Assembly (NCBI RefSeq): GCF_004101785.1
Contig: NZ_CP035130.1
Coordinates: 1,488,001 to 1,552,000, forward strand
DNA: 64,000 nt
Reading direction: 5' to 3'
DNA from: Gudongella oleilytica
Lineage (GTDB): Bacteria; Bacillota; Clostridia; Tissierellales; Tissierellaceae
Under the pieces are notes generated by a model that searched no databases, was not told the origin of the DNA, and saw only the letters and a program-made list of their open reading frames with translations. This document shows positions 16,990 to 59,322 of this stretch, one piece after another (the first letter of the stretch is position 1; every line of letters begins with the position of its first letter). The position numbers were made by a program, and so were the translations under genes.

Positions 16990-17207
16990 TAAAACCCTTC
17001 GTCTTATTAAGTAAGAGACGAAGGGTAATCCGCGGTGCCACTCTTTTTGCATTTCTGCCGGCTTTTATCTCTTAAGGCGAGACCTTCCCTGTCCTATTTA
17101 TTCAGACAGCACTCCGGAGTCCATTCACAAAGGTCCTGCTGCCGTTTTCCACCAACCACGGCTCTCTTGTAGCTTTTCCTAAGATACTATTCTCCATCAC
17201 AGTATAA
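16990..17207 (-). promoter_or_regulatory. Tryptophan T-box leader of trpS
   Basis: On the minus strand: Stem I with AGAGAG and GGTTGGTGGAAA, specifier loop GTGAA-TGG-ACTC with the Trp codon at 17121-17123, T-box AGAGTGGCACCGCGG near 17030-17045, and a competing terminator with arms ACCCTTCGTCT/AGACGAAGGGT at 16994-17026 followed by TTTTATATTTT. Uncharged tRNA-Trp should stabilise the antiterminator and allow trpS transcription. Confidence 0.95.
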
Positions 17208-17214
17208 TAAGTTG

Positions 17215-30198: not shown

Positions 30199-30460
30199 AA
30201 AAACCCCTGCCTCGTATATATACATATACAGAGGCAAAGGCTATCTTCGCGGTCCCACTCTGTTTAGGATAAACATCCTATCTCCTTCAGGTACTTATAT
30301 ACCTTAGTTCTGTAACGGGAACTCCCGTATAGGTCTACTATCGATTTCAACCTAATGCTCACTGGTGCACTTCAGGCAATCATGCTTAGGTATCTCTCAC
30401 CATCGGTACCCTCTCTTTGAAGCCAATCTTACTCTACTCTACCAGTTCAATGCTTTTTTA
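30199..30460 (-). promoter_or_regulatory. Cysteine T-box leader of cysK-cysE
   Basis: Minus strand shows Stem I (AGAGAGGG, GATGGTGAGAG), specifier loop GAAG-TGC-ACC with the Cys codon at 30367-30369, T-box AGAGTGGGACCGCG near 30246-30262, and a terminator hairpin GCCTCTGTATAT/ATATACGAGGC at 30209-30235 followed by GGGGTTTTTTGTTTT. Low charging of tRNA-Cys should switch on cysK-cysE. Confidence 0.95.
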
Positions 30461-50031: not shown

Positions 50032-50060
50032 TTGAAAACAACTCTTTATAATTATATAAT
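50032..50060 (+). promoter_or_regulatory. Promoter of the ACT/1574-residue protein operon
   Basis: TTGAAA (50032-50037), 17-base spacer, TATAAT (50055-50060). The start near 50067 gives a leader of about 20 bases to the ACT gene ATG. Confidence 0.85.
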
Positions 50061-50087: not shown

Positions 50088-50357
50088 ATGTATGAGGAGT
50101 ATGGCCTTTCAGGCCAATTATCTGCATTTGTACTTAAGTATGCCGATCAAAAGGGTATAATAAGCAAGGTGAGTTACATTCTGGCTTCTCACGATGTAAA
50201 TATTGCCAATATGAGAGTAGAAAGAACCGGCGATACAGCAGTCATGATATGTGAGGTGGATGGATTTTTAAGTGATGAAACATTGGCAGAAATAACCGGA
50301 CTCGACGAGATTAAATGGTATTGGAGCTATAAGCCTGATAAAAATTTTGAAAAATAG
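50088..50357 (+). CDS. Stand-alone ACT-domain protein
   Basis: 89 residues, essentially one ACT domain (QLSAFVLKYADQKGIISKVSYILASHDVNIANMRVERTGDTAVMICEVDG region, residues 10-60). ACT domains bind amino acids and control enzymes, for example in serine metabolism; the nearest look is the domain of L-serine dehydratase or SerA. ATG follows GAGGAGGG. It leads a plus-strand operon and lies 24 bases before the giant multidomain gene, so it may act as its amino-acid sensor. Confidence 0.88.
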   Translation: MYEEYGLSGQLSAFVLKYADQKGIISKVSYILASHDVNIANMRVERTGDTAVMICEVDGFLSDETLAEITGLDEIKWYWSYKPDKNFEK

Positions 50358-50381
50358 ATTCCAGACCTTGGGAGGCATTCT

Positions 50382-53300
50382 ATGAATATTAGAGAGAAGC
50401 TTGATGAATTCATAAACGGTATAGAGGCATTTGATTCTTTTAAAAGTTCTGATATTGGCTTAGACCAGACAGTGATAGAATATATTGGAGTCATTAAGGG
50501 TTTCCTGGATGGTTACAAGGTTATGGGAACTGATGAGTGGATCAGAACTTTATTTGACTATGCGGTTTCAAAATCATACCCCCATAAGAGAACCTCTCGA
50601 ATAGAACCGGAGCATATAGAACTCTACGAAGCTGTCCTGACAGGGTTGAGGGAGCTTAATGGTTCCTCGCATTTTGACTACACAATAACAGATGGTTCTC
50701 ATGAGTTCTATACTTTTAAGTCAGAATATGAAAGCCGCTTTATATTTGAGATGATGCAGCTTGATATGGCAGCCACAGGCCATAACACCATTGAGCATGT
50801 ACTAGGTGTTAAGGATGTGGCTATGCATGTTGCTCTCCAACTAAAAAGCCTTGGTCTCCCAATAGACCTGGGTGTGGTATTGGGTTCCAGTCTTGGCCAT
50901 GACATAGGGAAATATGGAGTTACCCAGCGTGAACAGCCAAGAGTACCTTATCTGCACTACTTCTATACAGAACAATGGTTCAAAGAACTTGGACTTGACA
51001 GGATAGGTCATATCGCCACAAATCATTCCACCTGGGATCTCGAGCTTGAGACTCTACCATTGGAGTCACTGGTTCTTATATACGCAGACTTTAGAGTAAA
51101 AAACAGATCCGTGGATGGGAGACTTGAGATGTATACCTACACCCTTGAGGAATCCTTCCAGGTCATACTCGACAAGCTTGATAATGTTGATGAAGCAAAG
51201 GAGAAAAGGTACAGGAGAGTATATAACAAGCTGAAGGACTTCGAGGAATATATCATCGAGCTTGGTGTGGACACAACTTTAAATGGCGGCATCAACCCCC
51301 GTGGCCAAGTGTATTGGAGCTTACTAAAGGGTGAGGATATAGTTCGCTCAGTCAAATATAAAGCCATAGAAAACAACGTATACCTCATGGCTAACCTTGT
51401 AAACCAGGACAGATTCCTGGAAATTCTGGAGGAGGCAAGAAGTCAAGCTAATTGGCGAAGACTAAGGCTTTATATTGAGATCCTCAAGGAATATTCCACT
51501 TATCTGACACAAAAACAAAAGATACTGGTGCTTCATTTCCTCAGTGACCTGATGCTCCATAAAGAGGAAGATGTCCGTAAGGAGGCCTCGGAGTTAATAG
51601 GTAGGATCCTGTCAAATTATGACGAGGAATACAGAAAAGAGCTGCCTGATTCAGTGGTTATGAATCGTCCGGATGAGACCAGCGAGATGCTTCTTGAAAA
51701 ACTGCTGACTGACCTTCTGTATCCCAGCTATAAGCTTGCCGATTCTCAAAATGAGTGGCTGTATAACCTAAAGCTCATAGTAAAATCTATTTTCGAGTTC
51801 TGTCACAGGGATAAATATCCCATATATTTCGATAAGCTGAATTCATTTTATCAGGAATGTGACAGTCTGACCCCAATTGCACAGTTTTATCTTGTACAAA
51901 CAATAAATTATCTTCCGCTAAGCAGCTTGGATGATGACAGAAGATCTCAACTATACAGGTATATCCTTAAAAAAATATCCTCTCCAAACACAAATATCCG
52001 ACTAAGTGCTTTGGACAGAACCTCTGAAATTATTACAAATTTTGCTGATGAGAAGCTTTTTATCCCTATAAGGAACTATCTGTCTAAAATGATGGAAAAA
52101 TCAAATATCCCTGCAGAGAATTATCTAAGATACATCCTGGCCATGAAGCTTAAGATGGACGATGGCGCGATTGCTGTATTTAGAGCAAACTACTATTCGG
52201 ATCAAGCAAATGTATCTGAATTGTTTCTGGAAAATCTAAAGACAGCAACTGGATGGACCAATAAAAAAATAAATATCGATATCCTTTATGACCAGGTAAG
52301 AAAAAATCCCCAGACGACAGGCATTCATACAGCCATACACTTATGCAATCTGTTAAAGGTGAGTGCTGTTGAAAGGGTCAGAAACTACAGTGGTTATACA
52401 TTGCTTAATATAATACCACTTCTATCGCTTGAGCAGAGGAACGACGTTGCCATTGAGTTATTGAGAGCTCTCGAAATGGACAGCTATCAGTTCACTAAGT
52501 TCATACCTGAGTACCTGGGACACTTGTTCCTGTTTCTTCCTCCGAAGGAGCTTGATGAGATCGTTGATGACCTCGAGGATAAAATCAGGGTTTCAAGACC
52601 CCAGACTGTCATTCTGTTATTAAATACTATTGGCACGGCAATAATTAATTACCCTATCTACAAGGATCTGTTCCCCGAGGATTTCAGCAGAAACATAACA
52701 AGACTTTACAGATTGCTTGGCCTTCTTCTCGTTCCAATATCATCCTATAAGGTAGAAATAAAAACAGAGGCCTTAAGGGTAATTTCATCGACAGTCTTTA
52801 ACTCAGACAGACTATCGCTTGAAGATAAATTTGTGGTCTTCAGAAGAGTAGGTAAAAAGCTGTTGACTCTAATCGAGGATGCACGGGAGAATGCATTTGT
52901 ATTTTACAATAATGCCGCATCCCTGAACCACATATACAGATTTATTTCTGAGTATGAGTTTGAAATAGGTGATATGGACATTGAATCTGAGGAGGATGTC
53001 GTATTCTTCCCTGGATCCTTTGATCCATTCAGCCTGAGTCACAGGGAAATTGCCAAGGAGATCCGTAATCAAGGCTTCGAGGTTTACCTTGCAGTTGATG
53101 AGTTTTCATGGTCCAAGAGAACAGAGGCCCATCAATTCAGGAGAAATATAATCAATATGAGTATTGCCAAGGAGGACGGAATTTATCTTTTCCCAAGAGA
53201 AATACCTGTAAATATCGGAAATGACCAAGACATGAAAAAACTGAAATCTATCTTTGGCAAGAGAGAGGTCTACCTTGCCGTTGGCTCTGATGTCCTGGTG

Positions 53301-55106
53301 AATGCTTCTGCATATAGAGGAGAAAGAGAAATTCTGAAATTTTCTCATGTAATATTCGACAGAAAAACAGATCAGAATCACATAAATGAGTCTGAAAGAC
53401 TTGAATCAGCGATTTCAAGAATAAAGGGCAACGTAGTAAAGCTTACTCTGCCTACCCAATATGAAGACATCAGTTCTACAAAAATCCGGGAAAATATAGA
53501 CAAGAATAGAGATATTTCAAAGCTCATCGATCCGATGGCAGCTGATTATATCTACAATTTTGGTTTGTATCTTCGAGAACCCCTATACAAGACACTCCTG
53601 GAAACGAAGACCGTAGATATCGACGTTCATAGAAACCTAAGCAGTGAACTGCTCGATTACCTTACAGGGCATTTTGGAGATAAGCTTGACATTGAAGGTC
53701 TTATTGGTATAAGGGAAAAACTAAGCTACAGGATAATACTTTTGATGGACACCGAGACTAATTCACCGCTTGGTTTTTCAGCCTTCTATTGGGTCCGCCA
53801 TAGTATGCTCTTTGATGAATTCAAGGATCAGGAAACCACAGAGTTCATAAGAAATAATGCAAAGGGACGAACAGCTTTTATTTCCTGTATGTTTGCCAAG
53901 GATGATGACGACAATCTAATGGACATGATCCTGAACGAGACTTTGTCAATCGCATTAAACAGAGATTATAACTATGCTTTATACAGCAATACCATGGTCA
54001 AGGGTGAAAATAAAAAAGCTGAGGAATTCCTAAGCCTCCAGGGATTTGTTAAAACCCCCTATACCCACAGGGGATCTCCAATCCTTATGGTGGACATGAA
54101 CAATCCAGTCAGCTTGAACCTTGATCTTGAGAACACTCTAAAGGCTCCTTATGACGAGGATCCCAGAGTTCAGAGAGTCATATACGAATCCAGGAAGAAG
54201 TTGAAGAAAGTTCTGGCAGATCTTTATCCTGGAGAGCTGTTGATTTCATTTAACAGGGATATGGTCTACTCAAAGCTAATACAAAAAATCTGCGACGAAA
54301 ATGAGGTGCCAGTACTTGATTCAGGTAAAAGACAGCTTGGAGGTAAAATGTGCGTACCCTTTGGAATCATACTGAATAACTCCATTATTCCCAATACAGT
54401 AACGAAGACCCTTCATACTGAAAGGATCTTTGAACCTGACATTCAAAGCTTTACAGTTGGTCACTTCCCCAATTACCTGACATTGGAGGAACAATGTAAA
54501 ACCATTAAATCCTTCAACAAACCTGTGATCCTTCTGGATGACCTGCTCCACAAGGGCTACAGAATAAAGATAGTCGAGCCGTTGTTGAGAAATGAGGAAA
54601 TTGAGATATCTAAGCTTCTTGTAGGCATATTGTCCGGCAAGGGTAAAGAAATAGCTGAAATCAGAAACCTGAATATCGATTCTGCATACTTCGTTCCTAA
54701 TCTCAAGCTCTGGTTCAATGAAAGCGGTCAGTACCCATTTCTTGGAGGCGATATGGTCAGAAGCGATTACCTTGAGAATAATCTGATACCAAGCATAAAC
54801 TTCATCCTCCCATATGTCTCACCAAGATTCATTAAGGTAAAAAGCCAGGACAGTATCTACAGAATGTCAGAGGTTTCTCTGAGGAATACCATGGATATTT
54901 TCAAGGCGATAGAAAAACTGTATCAGGAGATCAATGAAAAGAACTTGACTATCGCCTCGCTGGGTGAGGTCATCCATATACCAAGGTATCCTGATCTTGA
55001 GAGGAGTATAGGCGAGAAACGCCATATGAAGCCCTCTGCATCTATCAAGATGGATCTTGACTATCTGAAAAGACTCGAGCACACCCTTAGAGGACATGTG
55101 AGGTGA
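50382..55106 (+). CDS. 1574-residue multidomain protein: HD, repeats, NadD-like, GNAT-like, PRTase-like
   Basis: Not a named family to me. HD phosphohydrolase-like region (about 125-250) has IEH near 136, GHDIGK near 171, NHSTWDLE and IYADFR. About 300-860 is all-helical, HEAT-like. At about 875-1060 is a nucleotidyltransferase fold: FPGSFDPFSLSH in place of the NadD-type GxFDPxHxGH (first His of HxGH is Ser) and an intact ISSTKIREN near 1029. About 1070-1215 looks like a GNAT acyltransferase. About 1240-1480 resembles a phosphoribosyltransferase with VILLDDLLHKGYR near 1380 where the PRPP loop would be, without its usual Thr residues. The gene overlaps the next by four bases. A nucleotide or cofactor repair/synthesis role is a guess. 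Confidence 0.85.
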   Translation: MNIREKLDEFINGIEAFDSFKSSDIGLDQTVIEYIGVIKGFLDGYKVMGTDEWIRTLFDYAVSKSYPHKRTSRIEPEHIELYEAVLTGLRELNGSSHFDYTITDGSHEFYTFKSEYESRFIFEMMQLDMAATGHNTIEHVLGVKDVAMHVALQLKSLGLPIDLGVVLGSSLGHDIGKYGVTQREQPRVPYLHYFYTEQWFKELGLDRIGHIATNHSTWDLELETLPLESLVLIYADFRVKNRSVDGRLEMYTYTLEESFQVILDKLDNVDEAKEKRYRRVYNKLKDFEEYIIELGVDTTLNGGINPRGQVYWSLLKGEDIVRSVKYKAIENNVYLMANLVNQDRFLEILEEARSQANWRRLRLYIEILKEYSTYLTQKQKILVLHFLSDLMLHKEEDVRKEASELIGRILSNYDEEYRKELPDSVVMNRPDETSEMLLEKLLTDLLYPSYKLADSQNEWLYNLKLIVKSIFEFCHRDKYPIYFDKLNSFYQECDSLTPIAQFYLVQTINYLPLSSLDDDRRSQLYRYILKKISSPNTNIRLSALDRTSEIITNFADEKLFIPIRNYLSKMMEKSNIPAENYLRYILAMKLKMDDGAIAVFRANYYSDQANVSELFLENLKTATGWTNKKINIDILYDQVRKNPQTTGIHTAIHLCNLLKVSAVERVRNYSGYTLLNIIPLLSLEQRNDVAIELLRALEMDSYQFTKFIPEYLGHLFLFLPPKELDEIVDDLEDKIRVSRPQTVILLLNTIGTAIINYPIYKDLFPEDFSRNITRLYRLLGLLLVPISSYKVEIKTEALRVISSTVFNSDRLSLEDKFVVFRRVGKKLLTLIEDARENAFVFYNNAASLNHIYRFISEYEFEIGDMDIESEEDVVFFPGSFDPFSLSHREIAKEIRNQGFEVYLAVDEFSWSKRTEAHQFRRNIINMSIAKEDGIYLFPREIPVNIGNDQDMKKLKSIFGKREVYLAVGSDVLVNASAYRGEREILKFSHVIFDRKTDQNHINESERLESAISRIKGNVVKLTLPTQYEDISSTKIRENIDKNRDISKLIDPMAADYIYNFGLYLREPLYKTLLETKTVDIDVHRNLSSELLDYLTGHFGDKLDIEGLIGIREKLSYRIILLMDTETNSPLGFSAFYWVRHSMLFDEFKDQETTEFIRNNAKGRTAFISCMFAKDDDDNLMDMILNETLSIALNRDYNYALYSNTMVKGENKKAEEFLSLQGFVKTPYTHRGSPILMVDMNNPVSLNLDLENTLKAPYDEDPRVQRVIYESRKKLKKVLADLYPGELLISFNRDMVYSKLIQKICDENEVPVLDSGKRQLGGKMCVPFGIILNNSIIPNTVTKTLHTERIFEPDIQSFTVGHFPNYLTLEEQCKTIKSFNKPVILLDDLLHKGYRIKIVEPLLRNEEIEISKLLVGILSGKGKEIAEIRNLNIDSAYFVPNLKLWFNESGQYPFLGGDMVRSDYLENNLIPSINFILPYVSPRFIKVKSQDSIYRMSEVSLRNTMDIFKAIEKLYQEINEKNLTIASLGEVIHIPRYPDLERSIGEKRHMKPSASIKMDLDYLKRLEHTLRGHVR

Positions 55107-56347
55107 TTGAATTGCATTACTATAAAACTGGAGATAGTTTCTTGTTTTCAAGGCAGTTGTTTGACGATCTTGAAGATTCTGATGAAGGCGCTGTAAAAAA
55201 CCATGAGAGAACCATATACTACCTGGGGAGAAGTGATCCACTTCTCTCTCGAAGGGGCTTTAAAGCGATGTCTGCTTGCCAGCTGGAAAACAAGGCTGAA
55301 GGTTTGGAGCTTCTGGAAAATAAAGAAGAGAGTATGGATTTGCCTGATTGGATCAAAAATAGGATATTTGCAGGCGACGTAAAAGTAGTCAACAAAAATT
55401 ATCCCAACTGGAAAGATGAGCTTGATCCTCTCCCGGAAAAATGGAAGATCAACATAGCTGCATTGGGAGATGTTGGAAGCACTCTCGCTATTGGTCTGCG
55501 ACTTCTTGGTAAAAACATCTCTGACATAGGGTTATATGACAGGAGTCCTGAGAAGCAAAAAAGATGGGAATATGAGCTTAACCAAATAAGAAGACCTTTT
55601 GATGAAGGCAGTTTACCGAAAGTGGCAAGTGCCTCCGAAGAAGATTTATTTAACTGTGATATGTTAGTTTTTTGTGCATCAAAGGGTATTCCTCCAGTTG
55701 GATCCAATGTATCTGATGTAAGAATGGCTCAATTTGAAGGAAACAGGGAGATTATCCATAAATATGCTAAGATGGCAAGAAATATAGGTTTTAAGGGCTA
55801 CTTTGCAGTAGTTAGCGATCCTGTCGATCCCTTGTGTAAAGCAGTATTTATTGACAGCAACAGTGATGACAATGGAGAGATGGATTTTAATGGAATAGCT
55901 TCGAATAAGATAATCGGTTTCGGATTGGGTGTAATGGATGCAAGGGCTGCTTTTTACGCTGAAAGAGACGTTTCTCTTGGTCAATACCTTAGGGAAGGTC
56001 AGGTTTTCGGGCCTCACGGCAACGGCCTTATCGTTGCTGACAGTATGATCGATTATAATAATGAAAAGTCGATATACCTGACAGAAAAAACAGTAAAAGC
56101 AAATCTCGAAATAAGAGCACTTGGGTATAAGCCTTATGTTGCACCGAGTCTTTCTTCAGGGAGCCTATCCATAATAGCGGCGATTCAGGGCGAATATTTT
56201 TATGGCTCTTCACTAATGGGGCACGTCTATATGGGCTCAAAGATTAGAATAACAGACTCCGGGCTCGAGGTGCCCCAATATAGTCTTCATCCTTTATTGA
56301 AGGAAAGGCTTAAGGAAACCTACAATGGATTAAGGAGCATTATATGA
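55103..56347 (+). CDS. Lactate/malate dehydrogenase-fold protein with N-terminal extension
   Basis: 414 residues. Residues 1-110 are an extension with no recognised motif (ALGRSDPLLSRRGFKAM-like, with WIKNRIFAGDVKVVNKNYPNW). From 112 the LDH/MDH fold follows: NAD motif AALGDVGSTLAIGL near 120, acidic YDRSP, catalytic-type Asp/Arg VMDARAAF near 280 and His in FGPHGNG near 301 (LDH has GEHG). DPVDPLCK replaces the usual NPVD. Substrate unknown. GTG start overlaps the preceding stop (GTGA), and its own stop overlaps the next gene, showing tight coupling. Confidence 0.82.
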   Translation: MIELHYYKTGDSFLFSRQLFDDLEDSDEGAVKNHERTIYYLGRSDPLLSRRGFKAMSACQLENKAEGLELLENKEESMDLPDWIKNRIFAGDVKVVNKNYPNWKDELDPLPEKWKINIAALGDVGSTLAIGLRLLGKNISDIGLYDRSPEKQKRWEYELNQIRRPFDEGSLPKVASASEEDLFNCDMLVFCASKGIPPVGSNVSDVRMAQFEGNREIIHKYAKMARNIGFKGYFAVVSDPVDPLCKAVFIDSNSDDNGEMDFNGIASNKIIGFGLGVMDARAAFYAERDVSLGQYLREGQVFGPHGNGLIVADSMIDYNNEKSIYLTEKTVKANLEIRALGYKPYVAPSLSSGSLSIIAAIQGEYFYGSSLMGHVYMGSKIRITDSGLEVPQYSLHPLLKERLKETYNGLRSII

Positions 56348-57384
56348 GACAATTAACTGTAGTAATACCCTCTGAGCCTGGACGATTGCTAAAAAAAATG
56401 ATAAAGAGGGCTGTAGGGGATAACTCCCACAGAATAATAAGGAGCGCCATGGAGCTTCCTGACATGACTGAAAACGATATCCTGTTTGCTGTTGAGCTAA
56501 ATCCAATTGGAGTAAACACTGAAATGAATCATATCCTGGAAAAGCTCTGGGAAAGAGGCAAATCCTCGCTATCAGGCTCCAGAGGTGGACTTCTTGTACA
56601 CAGCAGCTATAACTCCTTTACCAAAACAGCGTCACAGGACATAATATATCTTGCAAACCAGCTTGGTTGCTTATTTCCTGGAAGACCGGCGATTGAAGCC
56701 AATGAAAATCTGGATAATTTCCAGCCAATGGAAAAAATCTACAGAATGCCTCTTGAGGAAATTTGCCTGTTAAAATGCGAGGAGCTTGGAAGAAGACTCA
56801 TATCAACACAGGAGTACTTCAGAAATAAAAGCATAGCTGTACTTCACTCGTCCAATAAGGGTACCTCTAATACTCTCCAGCTATGGGACCTTGTAAGGAA
56901 AAATCTAAGTGGGATTGATATTACTGAGGTATATCTTGGAAATGGAAATATAACTGACTGCAGAGGCTGCAGTTACAAAACTTGCAAATACTTTGGCAGA
57001 CAATCAAAGTGCTTTTATGGAGGGATCGTTGTTGAGGAGGTGTATCCTGCGATAAGCAACTCTTCGACTCTGATAATGCTTTGCCCCAACTACAACGATA
57101 TGCTCACTGCCAATATAGTAGCCACAATAAACAGATTAACAGCACTTTTCCGCAAAACTAAATTCTATGATAAAAAGCTCTTCTCTGTTATCGTTTCCGG
57201 ATATTCCGGAGGAGACGCACTGGCAAAGCAGCTTATAAGCAGCTTGAATATGAATAAGACCTTTGAGCTCCCACCTGCATTCTCCTTGCAGGCAACGGCA
57301 AATGACCCCGGCTCCATCCTTAGAATAGAGGACATCGAGGACAAAGCAAGAGAATTTGCAAAACATATTATGAAAAACATATAG
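56344..57384 (+). CDS. Flavodoxin-fold, cysteine-rich oxidoreductase-like protein
   Basis: 346 residues. Residues 1-160 are of unknown type. The second half resembles NADPH-dependent FMN reductases and iron-sulfur flavoproteins: the phosphate-loop-like SSNKGTSNTLQLW near 175, a cysteine cluster CRGCSYKTCKYFGRQSKC (C-x2-C-x4-C-x8-C, residues about 205-222) and LIMLCPNYNDMLTANIVATINR near 240. Probably binds FMN and perhaps an Fe-S cluster. The start overlaps the dehydrogenase-like gene stop by four bases. Last gene of the operon before a strong terminator. Confidence 0.82.
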   Translation: MRQLTVVIPSEPGRLLKKMIKRAVGDNSHRIIRSAMELPDMTENDILFAVELNPIGVNTEMNHILEKLWERGKSSLSGSRGGLLVHSSYNSFTKTASQDIIYLANQLGCLFPGRPAIEANENLDNFQPMEKIYRMPLEEICLLKCEELGRRLISTQEYFRNKSIAVLHSSNKGTSNTLQLWDLVRKNLSGIDITEVYLGNGNITDCRGCSYKTCKYFGRQSKCFYGGIVVEEVYPAISNSSTLIMLCPNYNDMLTANIVATINRLTALFRKTKFYDKKLFSVIVSGYSGGDALAKQLISSLNMNKTFELPPAFSLQATANDPGSILRIEDIEDKAREFAKHIMKNI

Positions 57385-57414
57385 AAGACCGCCGGTTTGA
57401 TATCCGGCGGTCTT
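57385..57414. terminator. Bidirectional terminator
   Basis: Perfect 11-base arms AAGACCGCCGG and CCGGCGGTCTT, loop of 8, T-rich after the plus side. It separates the plus-strand operon from arsC. Confidence 0.93.
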
Positions 57415-57416
57415 AT

Positions 57417-57836
57417 TTATAGCTGAAGCTCAATTTCCCCTTCACTTATTCTCCTGGATAGATCGACCATATTTTTCTCAATAATATCTATCACCCTGTG
57501 GAACTCCTCATCTGGTTTTCCTGATGGGTCGTCAAGTCCCCAATCCTCCTCATATTGGCTCGGAAGAAATGGACATATCACGTTGCAGCCCATTTTTATG
57601 ACAATATCTATCTCTGGCAGCTCATCAAGAAGCTTTGAATGCTGAGTCTCTTCCATGTCTATTGAAAATCTGTCCTTCATGATCCTTACTGCATCCTGAT
57701 TTATTTGGGGTTTTGTCTCAGTTCCAGCTGAGTAGCTGTCGAATACCTCGGAAGCAAGATGCTTTCCCAAAGCCTCGGCCATCTGGCTTCTGCAGGAATT
57801 ATGAACACATATGAATGCAACTCTCGGTTTTCTCAA
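57417..57836 (-). CDS. arsC: Arsenate reductase, thioredoxin-coupled type
   Basis: 139 residues of the low-molecular-weight phosphatase fold. P-loop CVHNSCR at residues 10-16, and two more redox cysteines in KMGCNVICPFLP near 82-89, with WGLDDPSGK following. It reduces arsenate to arsenite for export by Acr3. TTG start eight bases after GGAGG, three bases beyond the acr3 stop. Confidence 0.95.
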   Translation of the reverse strand: MRKPRVAFICVHNSCRSQMAEALGKHLASEVFDSYSAGTETKPQINQDAVRIMKDRFSIDMEETQHSKLLDELPEIDIVIKMGCNVICPFLPSQYEEDWGLDDPSGKPDEEFHRVIDIIEKNMVDLSRRISEGEIELQL

Positions 57837-57839
57837 AAT

Positions 57840-58910
57840 TTACACCTCCTTAAGTCTACTTGAGCCATTATCGAACCAATGCCTTGTGTTATTAGCAATC
57901 TTGACCAAGATCAGCATTACAGGTACTTCAACTAATACACCGACGACTGTTGCTACCGCTGCGCCTGATGTCAAACCGAATACAGATATTGCAACAGCAA
58001 CCGCAAGCTCAAAGAAATTAGACGCTCCGATCATTCCTGCAGGAGCAGCAACATCATGAGGCAGTTTCCATGCTTTCGACCAAAAATATGCAATGAAGAA
58101 TATCAAAAATGTCTGTATTATCAGAGGAACTGCTATCAACAGAATGTTTATTGGGTTGTCGATAATAATTTGCCCCTGAAACGAAAAAATAATTATAAGC
58201 GTCAGTAAAAGCCCGATTATTGTGACATTGCTGAACTTTGGTATATATACTTTTTCAAAATACTCAAGTCCCTTATTCTTTGTTATAACATTTCTTGATA
58301 TCACACCTGCTGCCAAAGGAATCACAACAAATAGTACTACTGAAAGGAAAAGAGTATTCCATGGCACTAAAATGTCACTTACTCCCAACAGCAGGGCAAC
58401 TATAGGTACAAAAGCCACAAGTATTATCAGGTCATTAGTGGCAACCTGCACTAAGGTATATGCGGGATTTCCTTTTGTAAGGTGGCTCCAGACGAATACC
58501 ATCGCGGTGCATGGTGCCGCTCCAAGCAAAACTGCTCCAGCCAGGTACTGCTTGGCTGTATCACTATCTATCATACCTCTATAAAATATATTAAAAAATA
58601 CATATGCTATAGCAAACATTGTAAAAGGTTTGATCAGCCAGTTTGTTACCCATGTAACTATTAAGCCCTTAGGATTTTCCCCCACCTTTTTGACGCTCTT
58701 AAAATCTACCTTTAGCATCATAGGGTAGATCATAAGCCAAATCAGGATCGCAACCGGCACTGACACCTTATAGTACTCAAAATTACTTAGGAACTTAGGT
58801 ATTTGTGGCAAATATACGCCTATAGCTACACCTACTATCATACATAGAGCGACCCAGATCGAAAGGTATTTCTCGAAAAAACTTATTCCATGCAACTTAT
58901 TACTTTTCAT
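57840..58910 (-). CDS. acr3: Arsenite efflux transporter Acr3
   Basis: 356 residues, ten predicted membrane segments. Bile-acid/arsenite symporter family with the functional cysteine in LLGAAPCTAMVFVWSHL near residue 130 and the GMIGASNFFELAVAVAIS segment near 300. The ATG at 58910 follows GGAGGAG and overlaps the arsR end by 11 bases; the frame is open 15 codons further. Removes As(III) made by ArsC. Confidence 0.96.
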   Translation of the reverse strand: MKSNKLHGISFFEKYLSIWVALCMIVGVAIGVYLPQIPKFLSNFEYYKVSVPVAILIWLMIYPMMLKVDFKSVKKVGENPKGLIVTWVTNWLIKPFTMFAIAYVFFNIFYRGMIDSDTAKQYLAGAVLLGAAPCTAMVFVWSHLTKGNPAYTLVQVATNDLIILVAFVPIVALLLGVSDILVPWNTLFLSVVLFVVIPLAAGVISRNVITKNKGLEYFEKVYIPKFSNVTIIGLLLTLIIIFSFQGQIIIDNPINILLIAVPLIIQTFLIFFIAYFWSKAWKLPHDVAAPAGMIGASNFFELAVAVAISVFGLTSGAAVATVVGVLVEVPVMLILVKIANNTRHWFDNGSSRLKEV

Positions 58911-59322
58911 TTTTGGACTCCTCCAGAAATATTTGCCTCTCAAGCTCCCCTTCAAGGAAAACCTGCACCCTGTCTTTGTCGCTGGTTATATCCTGACAGC
59001 TTAGAGGACTGTCGATGTATATTTTACATTTTCTAAGTTCTCTAACATAAGCGCTCCTATTGAAAACCTGCTCTCTAAGGTATTTGAGTAAGTCAGTGCT
59101 ATTCTTCTTGAACTCATCACTTAGTCTATAGTGGATCCACTGACCATCCTTATAGGATGAAATTATGCCTGATGATTTTAGCTTACCCAGATGTCTTGAC
59201 ACATTGGATTGATTCAAATCGAGGAGGACCTCAATTTCACATACGCAGAGCTCATAATCCGTCAACAGATTCAATATCCGAAGCCTGTTTTCATCCCCTA
59301 TGGCTTTAAAAAGCTCTTCCAT
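58900..59322 (-). CDS. arsR: ArsR-family arsenite-responsive repressor
   Basis: 140 residues. Winged helix with the As(III)-binding pattern ELCVCEIE near residue 28-35 and recognition helix QSNVSRHLGKLKSSG. The C-terminal tail is longer than the usual 110-120 residues and has two further cysteines. It leads arsR-acr3-arsC and should repress its own promoter until As(III) binds. Confidence 0.94.
   Translation of the reverse strand: MEELFKAIGDENRLRILNLLTDYELCVCEIEVLLDLNQSNVSRHLGKLKSSGIISSYKDGQWIHYRLSDEFKKNSTDLLKYLREQVFNRSAYVRELRKCKIYIDSPLSCQDITSDKDRVQVFLEGELERQIFLEESKNEK

Follow-up and report, generated by a model that had tools for sequence, protein, structure and literature searches.

The described proteins closest to those considered here are the adenylyltransferase NadD (TIGR00482) and the NadD-HD fusion (PRK07152), the L-lactate/malate dehydrogenases (PF00056), the iron-sulfur flavoproteins (ISF) and flavin mononucleotide (FMN) reductases of PF03358, and the iron-sulfur L-serine dehydratase SdaAB/SdaAA. 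Each has a partial counterpart in a gene cluster at positions 50,088 to 57,384 of a 64,000-nucleotide stretch of the Gudongella oleilytica genome (contig NZ_CP035130.1, 1,488,001 to 1,552,000, forward strand), the whole of which is called the window below. The cluster consists of a short ACT-domain gene, a gene for a giant multidomain protein (hereafter the giant), and genes for a lactate dehydrogenase (LDH)-fold protein, LDHL, and a flavoprotein, FMNR. The giant shares with NadD the fold, the D/H core, and an SSTxIR-like motif, and with the NadD-HD fusion the joining of NadD and HD folds in one chain, as in a 389-residue protein of the same genome. LDHL has the nicotinamide adenine dinucleotide (NAD)-binding domain of the dehydrogenases above cut-off and keeps their arginine and histidine places; FMNR carries an FMN_red domain into which a cluster of cysteines is inserted; and the ACT gene derives from SdaAB, intact sdaAB-sdaAA lying ahead of the giant in many relatives.

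The conserved unit comprises three of these genes, namely the giant, LDHL, and FMNR, and not four. Class counts are taken, from their equal sample size and handles, to refer to the same 291 genomes. Among these, the giant is found in 25 genomes (E < 1e-30) and in 18 of 181 genera, LDHL in 24 genomes (E < 1e-70, weaker matches being ordinary LDHs or fragments), FMNR in 23 (E < 1e-20), and all three in 23. At these thresholds, none of the 291 genomes contains LDHL or FMNR without the giant. The exceptions to the full set are a genome with a fragment of the giant only (G232, 84% complete) and one with no FMNR (G294, 82% complete). Closer to the window, 39 of 60 relatives, its own genome counted, encode a homologue of the giant (E < 1e-100); in a sample of 398 genomes from across the phylum, LDHL is encoded by 8 at E up to 1e-30, including two from the window's family. 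The order giant, LDHL, FMNR holds in all 21 wider loci read, and the tree distances of the three proteins, compared pairwise, correlate at 0.68–0.80 over 69 loci.

A scan of named genomes returned at least 519 encoding stretches, and locus counts rest on the best 80 of these. They include loci of Tissierella, Soehngenia, Caloramator, Alkaliphilus, Sedimentibacter, and Clostridium species, together with records titled Atribacteria (e.g., L096 and L108). All three genes are present in 65 of the 80 loci, with both gaps shorter than 200 bases in 59 of the 65 and a 4-base overlap between LDHL and FMNR in 38. Such gaps and overlaps are approximate, since starts in relatives were set at the first possible start codon; those of pyrE in locus L151 and of the giant in locus L037 were inspected individually. 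In ten of the 15 loci without the full trio, the sequence stops within 1,863 bases past the giant. It is well supported, in our opinion close to certain, that the giant, LDHL, and FMNR form one functional unit. The first-pass annotation of this DNA had proposed a four-gene operon, and had named as damaging to it the case that the genes never co-occur elsewhere. The proposal is narrowed accordingly: the stand-alone ACT gene was seen only in three genomes, all from the window's genus, and the other three genes do co-occur elsewhere, in the class genomes and Atribacteria-titled records just listed.

The giant was modelled with AlphaFold as two parts, residues 1–865 (mean predicted local distance difference test score, pLDDT, 88.7) and 860–1574 (86.0). 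Its residue conservation was counted over 59 sequences, its Pfam domains were surveyed in 19 giants, and for pocket residues the comparison relied on sequence and on visual inspection; in comparisons with VIA-align, families which that program does not list are not counted as excluded. The protein reads as an HD hydrolase, a HEAT/ARM superhelix, a NadD-like adenylyltransferase, a GNAT fold, and a weakly supported phosphoribosyltransferase (PRTase)-like fold, with a helical tail at the C-terminus of the model. The N-terminal part is helical and carries the HD motifs in the order H...HD...H...D, with H139 present in 58 of the 59 sequences (the other has a gap) and H173, D174, H215, and D236 in all; Pfam finds the domain in 5 of 19 giants at E up to 0.01. 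The superhelix matches other structures with Z up to 14.7 and a root-mean-square deviation (rmsd) of 17.6 over 435 residues, i.e., as a generic repeat.

The NadD-like domain, which has a CTP_transf_like match at residues 875–1038 (E 3.4e-9), superimposes on NadD of M. tuberculosis with an rmsd of 2.8 over 186 aligned residues. D881, H887, S1031, S1032, and R1036 are invariant (59/59), and T1033 is present in 42 of 59. Ser or Thr replaces the first His of HxGH, and the consensus reads NIxN where NadD (the genome's own, compared by eye) has TYT, which we take to be the nicotinate-recognition motif. An aromatic residue, Y978 (59/59), aligns by eye near the place of a Trp to which we presume a stacking role. 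Because of the NIxN segment and Y978, the base handled would be one other than nicotinate. The best curated matches are NadD models, with 52.1 bits against the TIGR00482 cut-off of 112.45 (E 8e-14); all listed giants lie under this cut-off, and a separate NadD above it is encoded in 60 of 60 relatives. A housekeeping NadD role is therefore unlikely, and the domain probably has another task. The genome's own NadD (G000:C1:1402756-1403316; L139) is fused to an HD domain in a protein of 389 residues; a relationship between the HD half of this fusion and the HD part of the giant was considered and dropped, the comparison not being significant.

The remaining folds of the giant are read from the AlphaFold model. 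The GNAT domain aligns with an rmsd of 2.5 over 131 residues, and no GxG or acetyl-coenzyme A (CoA) loop, the pyrophosphate-binding pattern of which is presumably Q/RxxGxG/A, is seen among tabulated residues 1160–1190 in the 59 sequences. The PRTase-like region resembles uracil phosphoribosyltransferase (UPRT) in a Foldseek comparison with a target TM of 0.44 and an rmsd of 8.2. PF00156 is detected in 1 of 19 giants (E 7e-4), and the window protein has no Pfam match there. A relationship of this part to PyrE was also considered; hhalign against one PyrE gave no significant result.

LDHL scores 28.2 bits against the Ldh_1_N cut-off of 27, with 19 of 19 members matching at E up to 0.01, and its profile positions 113–253 match lactate dehydrogenases of the PDB (E 3.2e-7). 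R207, D239, M278, R281, and H305 are invariant in 70 of 70 sequences; we take R207, R281, and H305 to occupy LDH substrate and catalytic places, their placement being partly by eye. FMNR scores 55 bits against the FMN_red (PF03358) cut-off of 24, again with 19 of 19 members matching at E up to 0.01; a PDB profile search with it gave no match. Its SxxxxSNT-type FMN loop is conserved (S170 68/70, S175 70/70, N176 69/70, T177 64/70), as are the four cysteines listed in the table, and FMNR is probably a flavin/Fe-S protein. The HD, NadD-like, GNAT-like, and LDH folds and the flavin protein with conserved cysteines that had been recognised by eye in the first-pass annotation are thus borne out, and the PRTase-like part weakly so.

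The giant also occurs in a second form. Three lone giants with enough flank (L107, L144, and L146) each adjoin a gene for an APH-family kinase, and these kinases are mutually 41–47% identical; a fourth locus, L113, repeats L107. Of the 291 class genomes, 5 encode this kinase, and each of the 5 also encodes a giant (naive P 3e-6, in a small sample). The trio is found in the same genome as a lone giant in three cases (L106, from the assembly of L113; G210; G253). Elsewhere, the kinase gene of L151 stands between pyrD and pyrE in the run carB-pyrK-pyrD-kinase-pyrE, ending 14 bases before the likely ATG of pyrE; a 4-base overlap with pyrE would require translation to begin at a GTG further upstream. 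The kinase gene of L153 has an NADP-type glutamate dehydrogenase (GDH) gene 18 bases behind it, and no such neighbour theme is seen around the kinase of L152. Neighbours of the giant were counted in the 83 of 116 loci kept after removal of giants at least 80% identical. LDHL and/or FMNR are missing from 12 of these 83, of which 7 have no more than 1,754 bases of sequence past the giant. Amino-acid genes are neighbours in 27 of the 83 loci, namely SdaAA in 18 (immediately upstream in 16), amine oxidase in five, GDH in three, and GltS-like genes in two; in L154 a further GDH gene lies more distantly downstream. Taken together, the neighbourhoods suggest a theme of nucleotide chemistry plus amino-acid and 2-oxoacid metabolism.

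The reading that we prefer, at a probability of about 0.4, is that the trio builds and turns over a metabolite of nucleotide or dinucleotide type and couples this to 2-hydroxyacid/flavin redox. The HEAT/ARM coil of the giant would hold a small nucleotide pathway together, in which the PRTase-like and NadD-like parts would build and then adenylylate a ribonucleotide with a non-nicotinate base, and the HD part would hydrolyse a phosphate or pyrophosphate bond in that metabolite. NAD-linked LDHL and FMNR, with its FMN and probable Fe-S cluster, would oxidise or reduce the organic-acid portion of the metabolite, or carry out a redox step in which the metabolite is the cofactor. The neighbouring serine dehydratase, GDH, and glutamate-synthase-like genes point to a use in amino-acid or 2-oxoacid metabolism, and in some genomes a second giant may pair with the APH-family small-molecule kinase in place of LDHL and FMNR. 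Within the genus of the window, the adjoining serine dehydratase was lost and its ACT domain alone kept, perhaps as an amino-acid sensor. It is unlikely that the system is a new cofactor-type pathway, with the giant making, adenylylating, and hydrolysing an NAD-like dinucleotide with a non-nicotinamide base, LDHL and FMNR using it in amino-acid fermentation, and the kinase-giant pair acting as a second entry to that dinucleotide. Dinucleotide synthesis, repair, or salvage, one role proposed at the outset, may yet apply, and a housekeeping NadD function is unlikely.

Several observations weigh against this account of nucleotide turnover coupled to redox. The substrate is specified only as far as a putative nucleotide type. 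The naive probability of the co-occurrence of the trio, near 1e-32, does not have shared ancestry removed. The same holds for the naive P of the kinase. In loci L077, L115, and L118, LDHL was found and FMNR was not, despite room for it, and in L107 and L113 the giant stands alone; a single locus need not carry the whole trio. The link between kinase and pyr genes is a single case, without overlap at the likely ATG. The neighbour families were chosen once the loci had been inspected, serine dehydratase accounts for 18 of the 27 loci with amino-acid neighbours, and the carriers probably have many such genes anyway. For the HD part of the window's giant, the Pfam match falls under cut-off, and neither a matching fold nor a relative in the PDB was obtained; the GNAT fold, without its CoA loop, may be inert. 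The loop expected to bind phosphoribosyl pyrophosphate (PRPP) reads DDLLHKGYR against DDxxxTGxT, with K and R where T-G-x-T is usual and with the second D replaced by N in 7 of 59 giants; the PDB profile search with this region was not significant, so that the PRTase assignment, made from the predicted model, is weak. In LDHL, Met278 stands for the catalytic Asp of LDH and Asp239 for Asn in 70 of 70 sequences, and the Asp-His pair is lacking.

Some of these points would be accommodated by a giant that acts as sensor or scaffold, its folds binding ATP, NAD(H), and PRPP without forming a product and switching LDHL and FMNR as a redox or energy gauge for amino-acid fermentation. The GNAT fold without its CoA loop, the altered PRPP loop, the large HEAT/ARM coil, and the two changed catalytic positions of LDHL agree with such a role. 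The fixed HD metal residues and the fixed H, D, and SSxxxR residues of the NadD-like domain would, however, hardly be needed by a mere binder, and we judge this alternative rather unlikely.

Another alternative is a branch of amino-acid fermentation, in which LDHL would act as a 2-hydroxyacid dehydrogenase on a keto acid derived from an amino acid such as serine or glutamate, with FMNR as its electron partner and the giant as a factor for activation or assembly. Serine dehydratase lies directly upstream of the giant in L037, its stop codon overlapping the start of the giant; GDH, GltS-like, and amine oxidase genes are among the neighbours; and R207, R281, and H305 of LDHL are fixed. The loss of the Asp partner of the catalytic His to Met speaks against it, as does the behaviour of glycine-reductase-type genes: a Stickland reductase link was pursued and given up, since PF07355 is present in 52 of 60 relatives whether or not the giant is. 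This reading appears quite improbable as a whole.

An extra NAD branch, the giant making or repairing NAD(P) or a nicotinate nucleotide (e.g., when NADH is damaged) and its two partners serving as reductases, is a still more doubtful proposition. NadD models and NadD folds do rank first for its adenylyltransferase domain, and LDHL has an LDH-type NAD-binding domain; the shortfall against TIGR00482, the lack of TYT, the Ser/Thr in HxGH, and the presence of a separate NadD in every relative are set against this. Finally, HEAT/ARM coils commonly bind proteins or RNA, and the giant could in principle adenylylate or trim such a macromolecule held by its coil, a very unlikely role given partners with small-molecule redox folds and a second-form kinase that matches a small-molecule kinase family and lies once within a pyrimidine operon.

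By sequence comparison, the ACT gene is what remains of a lost beta subunit of L-serine dehydratase, namely its C-terminal domain. Its product matches only the end of the TIGR00719 sda_beta model (positions 143–207 of 208, E 9.9e-9) and, with 89 residues, consists of the ACT domain alone, without the catalytic domain that precedes it in SdaAB. Relatives have a full 222-residue SdaAB gene, then a 290-residue SdaAA gene, then the giant. Judged by position, 12 of the 16 genomes of the window's family that bear the giant have sdaAA next to it (G003, G004, G011, G012, G013, G015, G018, G019, G021, G024, G025, and G026). The other four are G000, which is the window genome, G001, G002, and G007, whose contig begins within the giant. 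Within the genus, G003 keeps sdaAB-sdaAA, and G000, G001, and G002 have an ACT gene for 89 or 95 residues in its place; sdaAA has no match in G000 and one match elsewhere in the genome in each of G001 and G002. Among these three genomes, the ratio of nonsynonymous to synonymous differences in the ACT gene (pN/pS) is 0.33–0.62, with synonymous divergence (dS) nearly saturated; this indicates that the reading frame has been kept, and a DQKGxIS...NIAxM core remains. The piece is perhaps re-used as an amino-acid sensor. Control of the operon by amino acids through ACT, as first proposed, would be at best a local add-on, G003 and most giant-bearing genomes of the family keeping the dehydratase.

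The open reading frames of the cluster all lie on the plus strand with tightly spaced junctions, exactly as first annotated: ACT and the giant are separated by 24 bases (50358-50381), and 4-base overlaps join the giant to LDHL (55103-55106) and LDHL to FMNR (56344-56347). Promoter and terminator calls are consensus matches only, with 24 promoter-like sites in the window compared with 18.7 (standard deviation 4.2) in shuffles and 11 terminator-like sites compared with 6.0 (2.4).

Table. Features of the operon in the window, and genes of the APH-type kinase subfamily in other loci.
Feature	Position	Strand	Basis
Promoter-like TTGAAA-17-TATAAT	50032..50060	+	Consensus scan 11/12; 27 bases upstream of ACT start
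Stand-alone ACT domain protein, 89 residues	50088..50357	+	Retained SdaAB C-terminal domain; Pfam ACT E 3.5e-8
Giant multidomain protein, 1574 residues, core gene 1	50382..55106	+	Open reading frame; homologues in relatives
HD hydrolase domain (putative), residues 136-236	50787..51089	+	Pfam HD E 0.0029, under cut-off; motif conservation
ARM/HEAT superhelix, residues about 318-861	51333..52964	+	AlphaFold mean pLDDT 88.7; VIA-align rows 324-865
NadD-like adenylyltransferase domain, residues 871-1064	52992..53573	+	VIA-align Z 17.3
GNAT-fold domain, residues 1076-1239	53607..54098	+	VIA-align Z 13.2
PRTase-like region, residues about 1320-1440, motif-set limits	54339..54701	+	Foldseek UPRT E 5e-4
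LDHL, LDH-fold protein, 414 residues, GTG start, core gene 2	55103..56347	+	Ldh_1_N E 2.3e-6, above cut-off
FMNR, flavoprotein, 346 residues, core gene 3	56344..57384	+	FMN_red E 9e-15
FMNR cysteine motif C-x2-C-x4-C-x8-C (C206, C209, C214, C223), candidate Fe-S site	56959..57012	+	Four Cys 70/70
Hairpin, terminator-like, 11-pair stem	57385..57414	.	Touches last stop codon; scored on - strand
APH-type kinase subfamily gene	L107:8860-9819
APH-type kinase subfamily gene	L144:12905-13843
APH-type kinase subfamily gene	L146:5017-5946
APH-type kinase subfamily gene	L151:8347-9276
APH-type kinase subfamily gene	L152:8435-9376
APH-type kinase subfamily gene	L153:8095-9132

No riboswitch or T-box leader was found before the operon in the window or in six relatives, the only hits in the latter being two tRNAs; the three T-box leaders of the window (30227-30459, 1-196, and 17011-17209, all on the minus strand) lie away from it. 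Directly downstream, at 57417-59322 on the minus strand, are genes that by eye resemble those for arsenate reductase, an arsenite transporter, and ArsR. In two other loci (L073:7918-13236 and L075:14882-20085), a four-gene insert separates the giant from LDHL-FMNR. It holds a three-gene glutamate-synthase-like set (an amidotransferase-like part, by eye, an FMN part, and a GXGXG-like part) and an ammonium-transporter-like gene, and three of its four genes run the same way as the operon. A 214-residue gene resembling that of undecaprenyl diphosphate synthase by eye (L037:13181-13825) lies ahead of sdaAB in several relatives, and 17 of the 83 loci have it close to the giant. The labels of two records also call for comment: NZ_CP154629.1 (L031), a 2.63-Mb Acetoanaerobium noterae record bearing the operon, is filed as a plasmid and is chromosome-sized, and the name of L084 (JAJGRE010000003.1), "Calditrichales bacterium MX18-03", looks wrong, the record matching G210:C9, which is placed in the window's class. 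Three further ideas were discarded. An extra domain seemingly fused to the giant in G331 and G274 is an artefact of stop-to-stop frame length; phage origin found no match in an LDHL search of phage records; and, as to a link with sporulation, the four genomes of the genus all have the giant and lack SpoIVA, which several genomes without the giant possess.

No NCBIfam model exceeds its cut-off for any of the four window proteins, and a literature search, made in an open library only, returned no description of the giant-LDHL-FMNR set, in line with the first-pass annotation, which knew of no described pathway with these parts. The single folds of the trio are known. The unit spans many families within and beyond the window's order, in addition to the Atribacteria-titled records, and many of its carriers are amino-acid fermenters. 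The recurrence in anaerobic bacteria of the giant with the same two redox proteins points to a shared chemistry. Being inherited together and keeping their nucleotide-handling and redox residues intact, the three make a good candidate for a missing metabolic step. Culturable carriers, with all three genes in their loci, include Acetoanaerobium noterae and Clostridium carboxidivorans.

Each protein of the cluster can finally be set apart from its closest described counterpart. Unlike organisms with the iron-sulfur L-serine dehydratase, the window genome has neither the catalytic domain of SdaAB nor SdaAA. LDHL differs from L-lactate/malate dehydrogenases in a 110-residue N-terminal extension, in SDPVD for SNPVD, and in Met for the catalytic Asp, and it stays under the cut-off of every NCBIfam LDH model. 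FMNR spaces its cysteines as C-x2-C-x4-C-x8-C in place of the compact ISF motif, which we take to be C-x2-C-x2-C-x4-7-C, and exceeds the PF03358 family by an N-terminal part of 160 residues without a significant Pfam match. The giant lies far under the NadD cut-off, with TYT not seen and Ser/Thr in place of the first His, and, compared with the NadD-HD fusion, it carries its HD domain at the opposite end, about 635 residues away, together with two further folds and in a genome that has a separate NadD.

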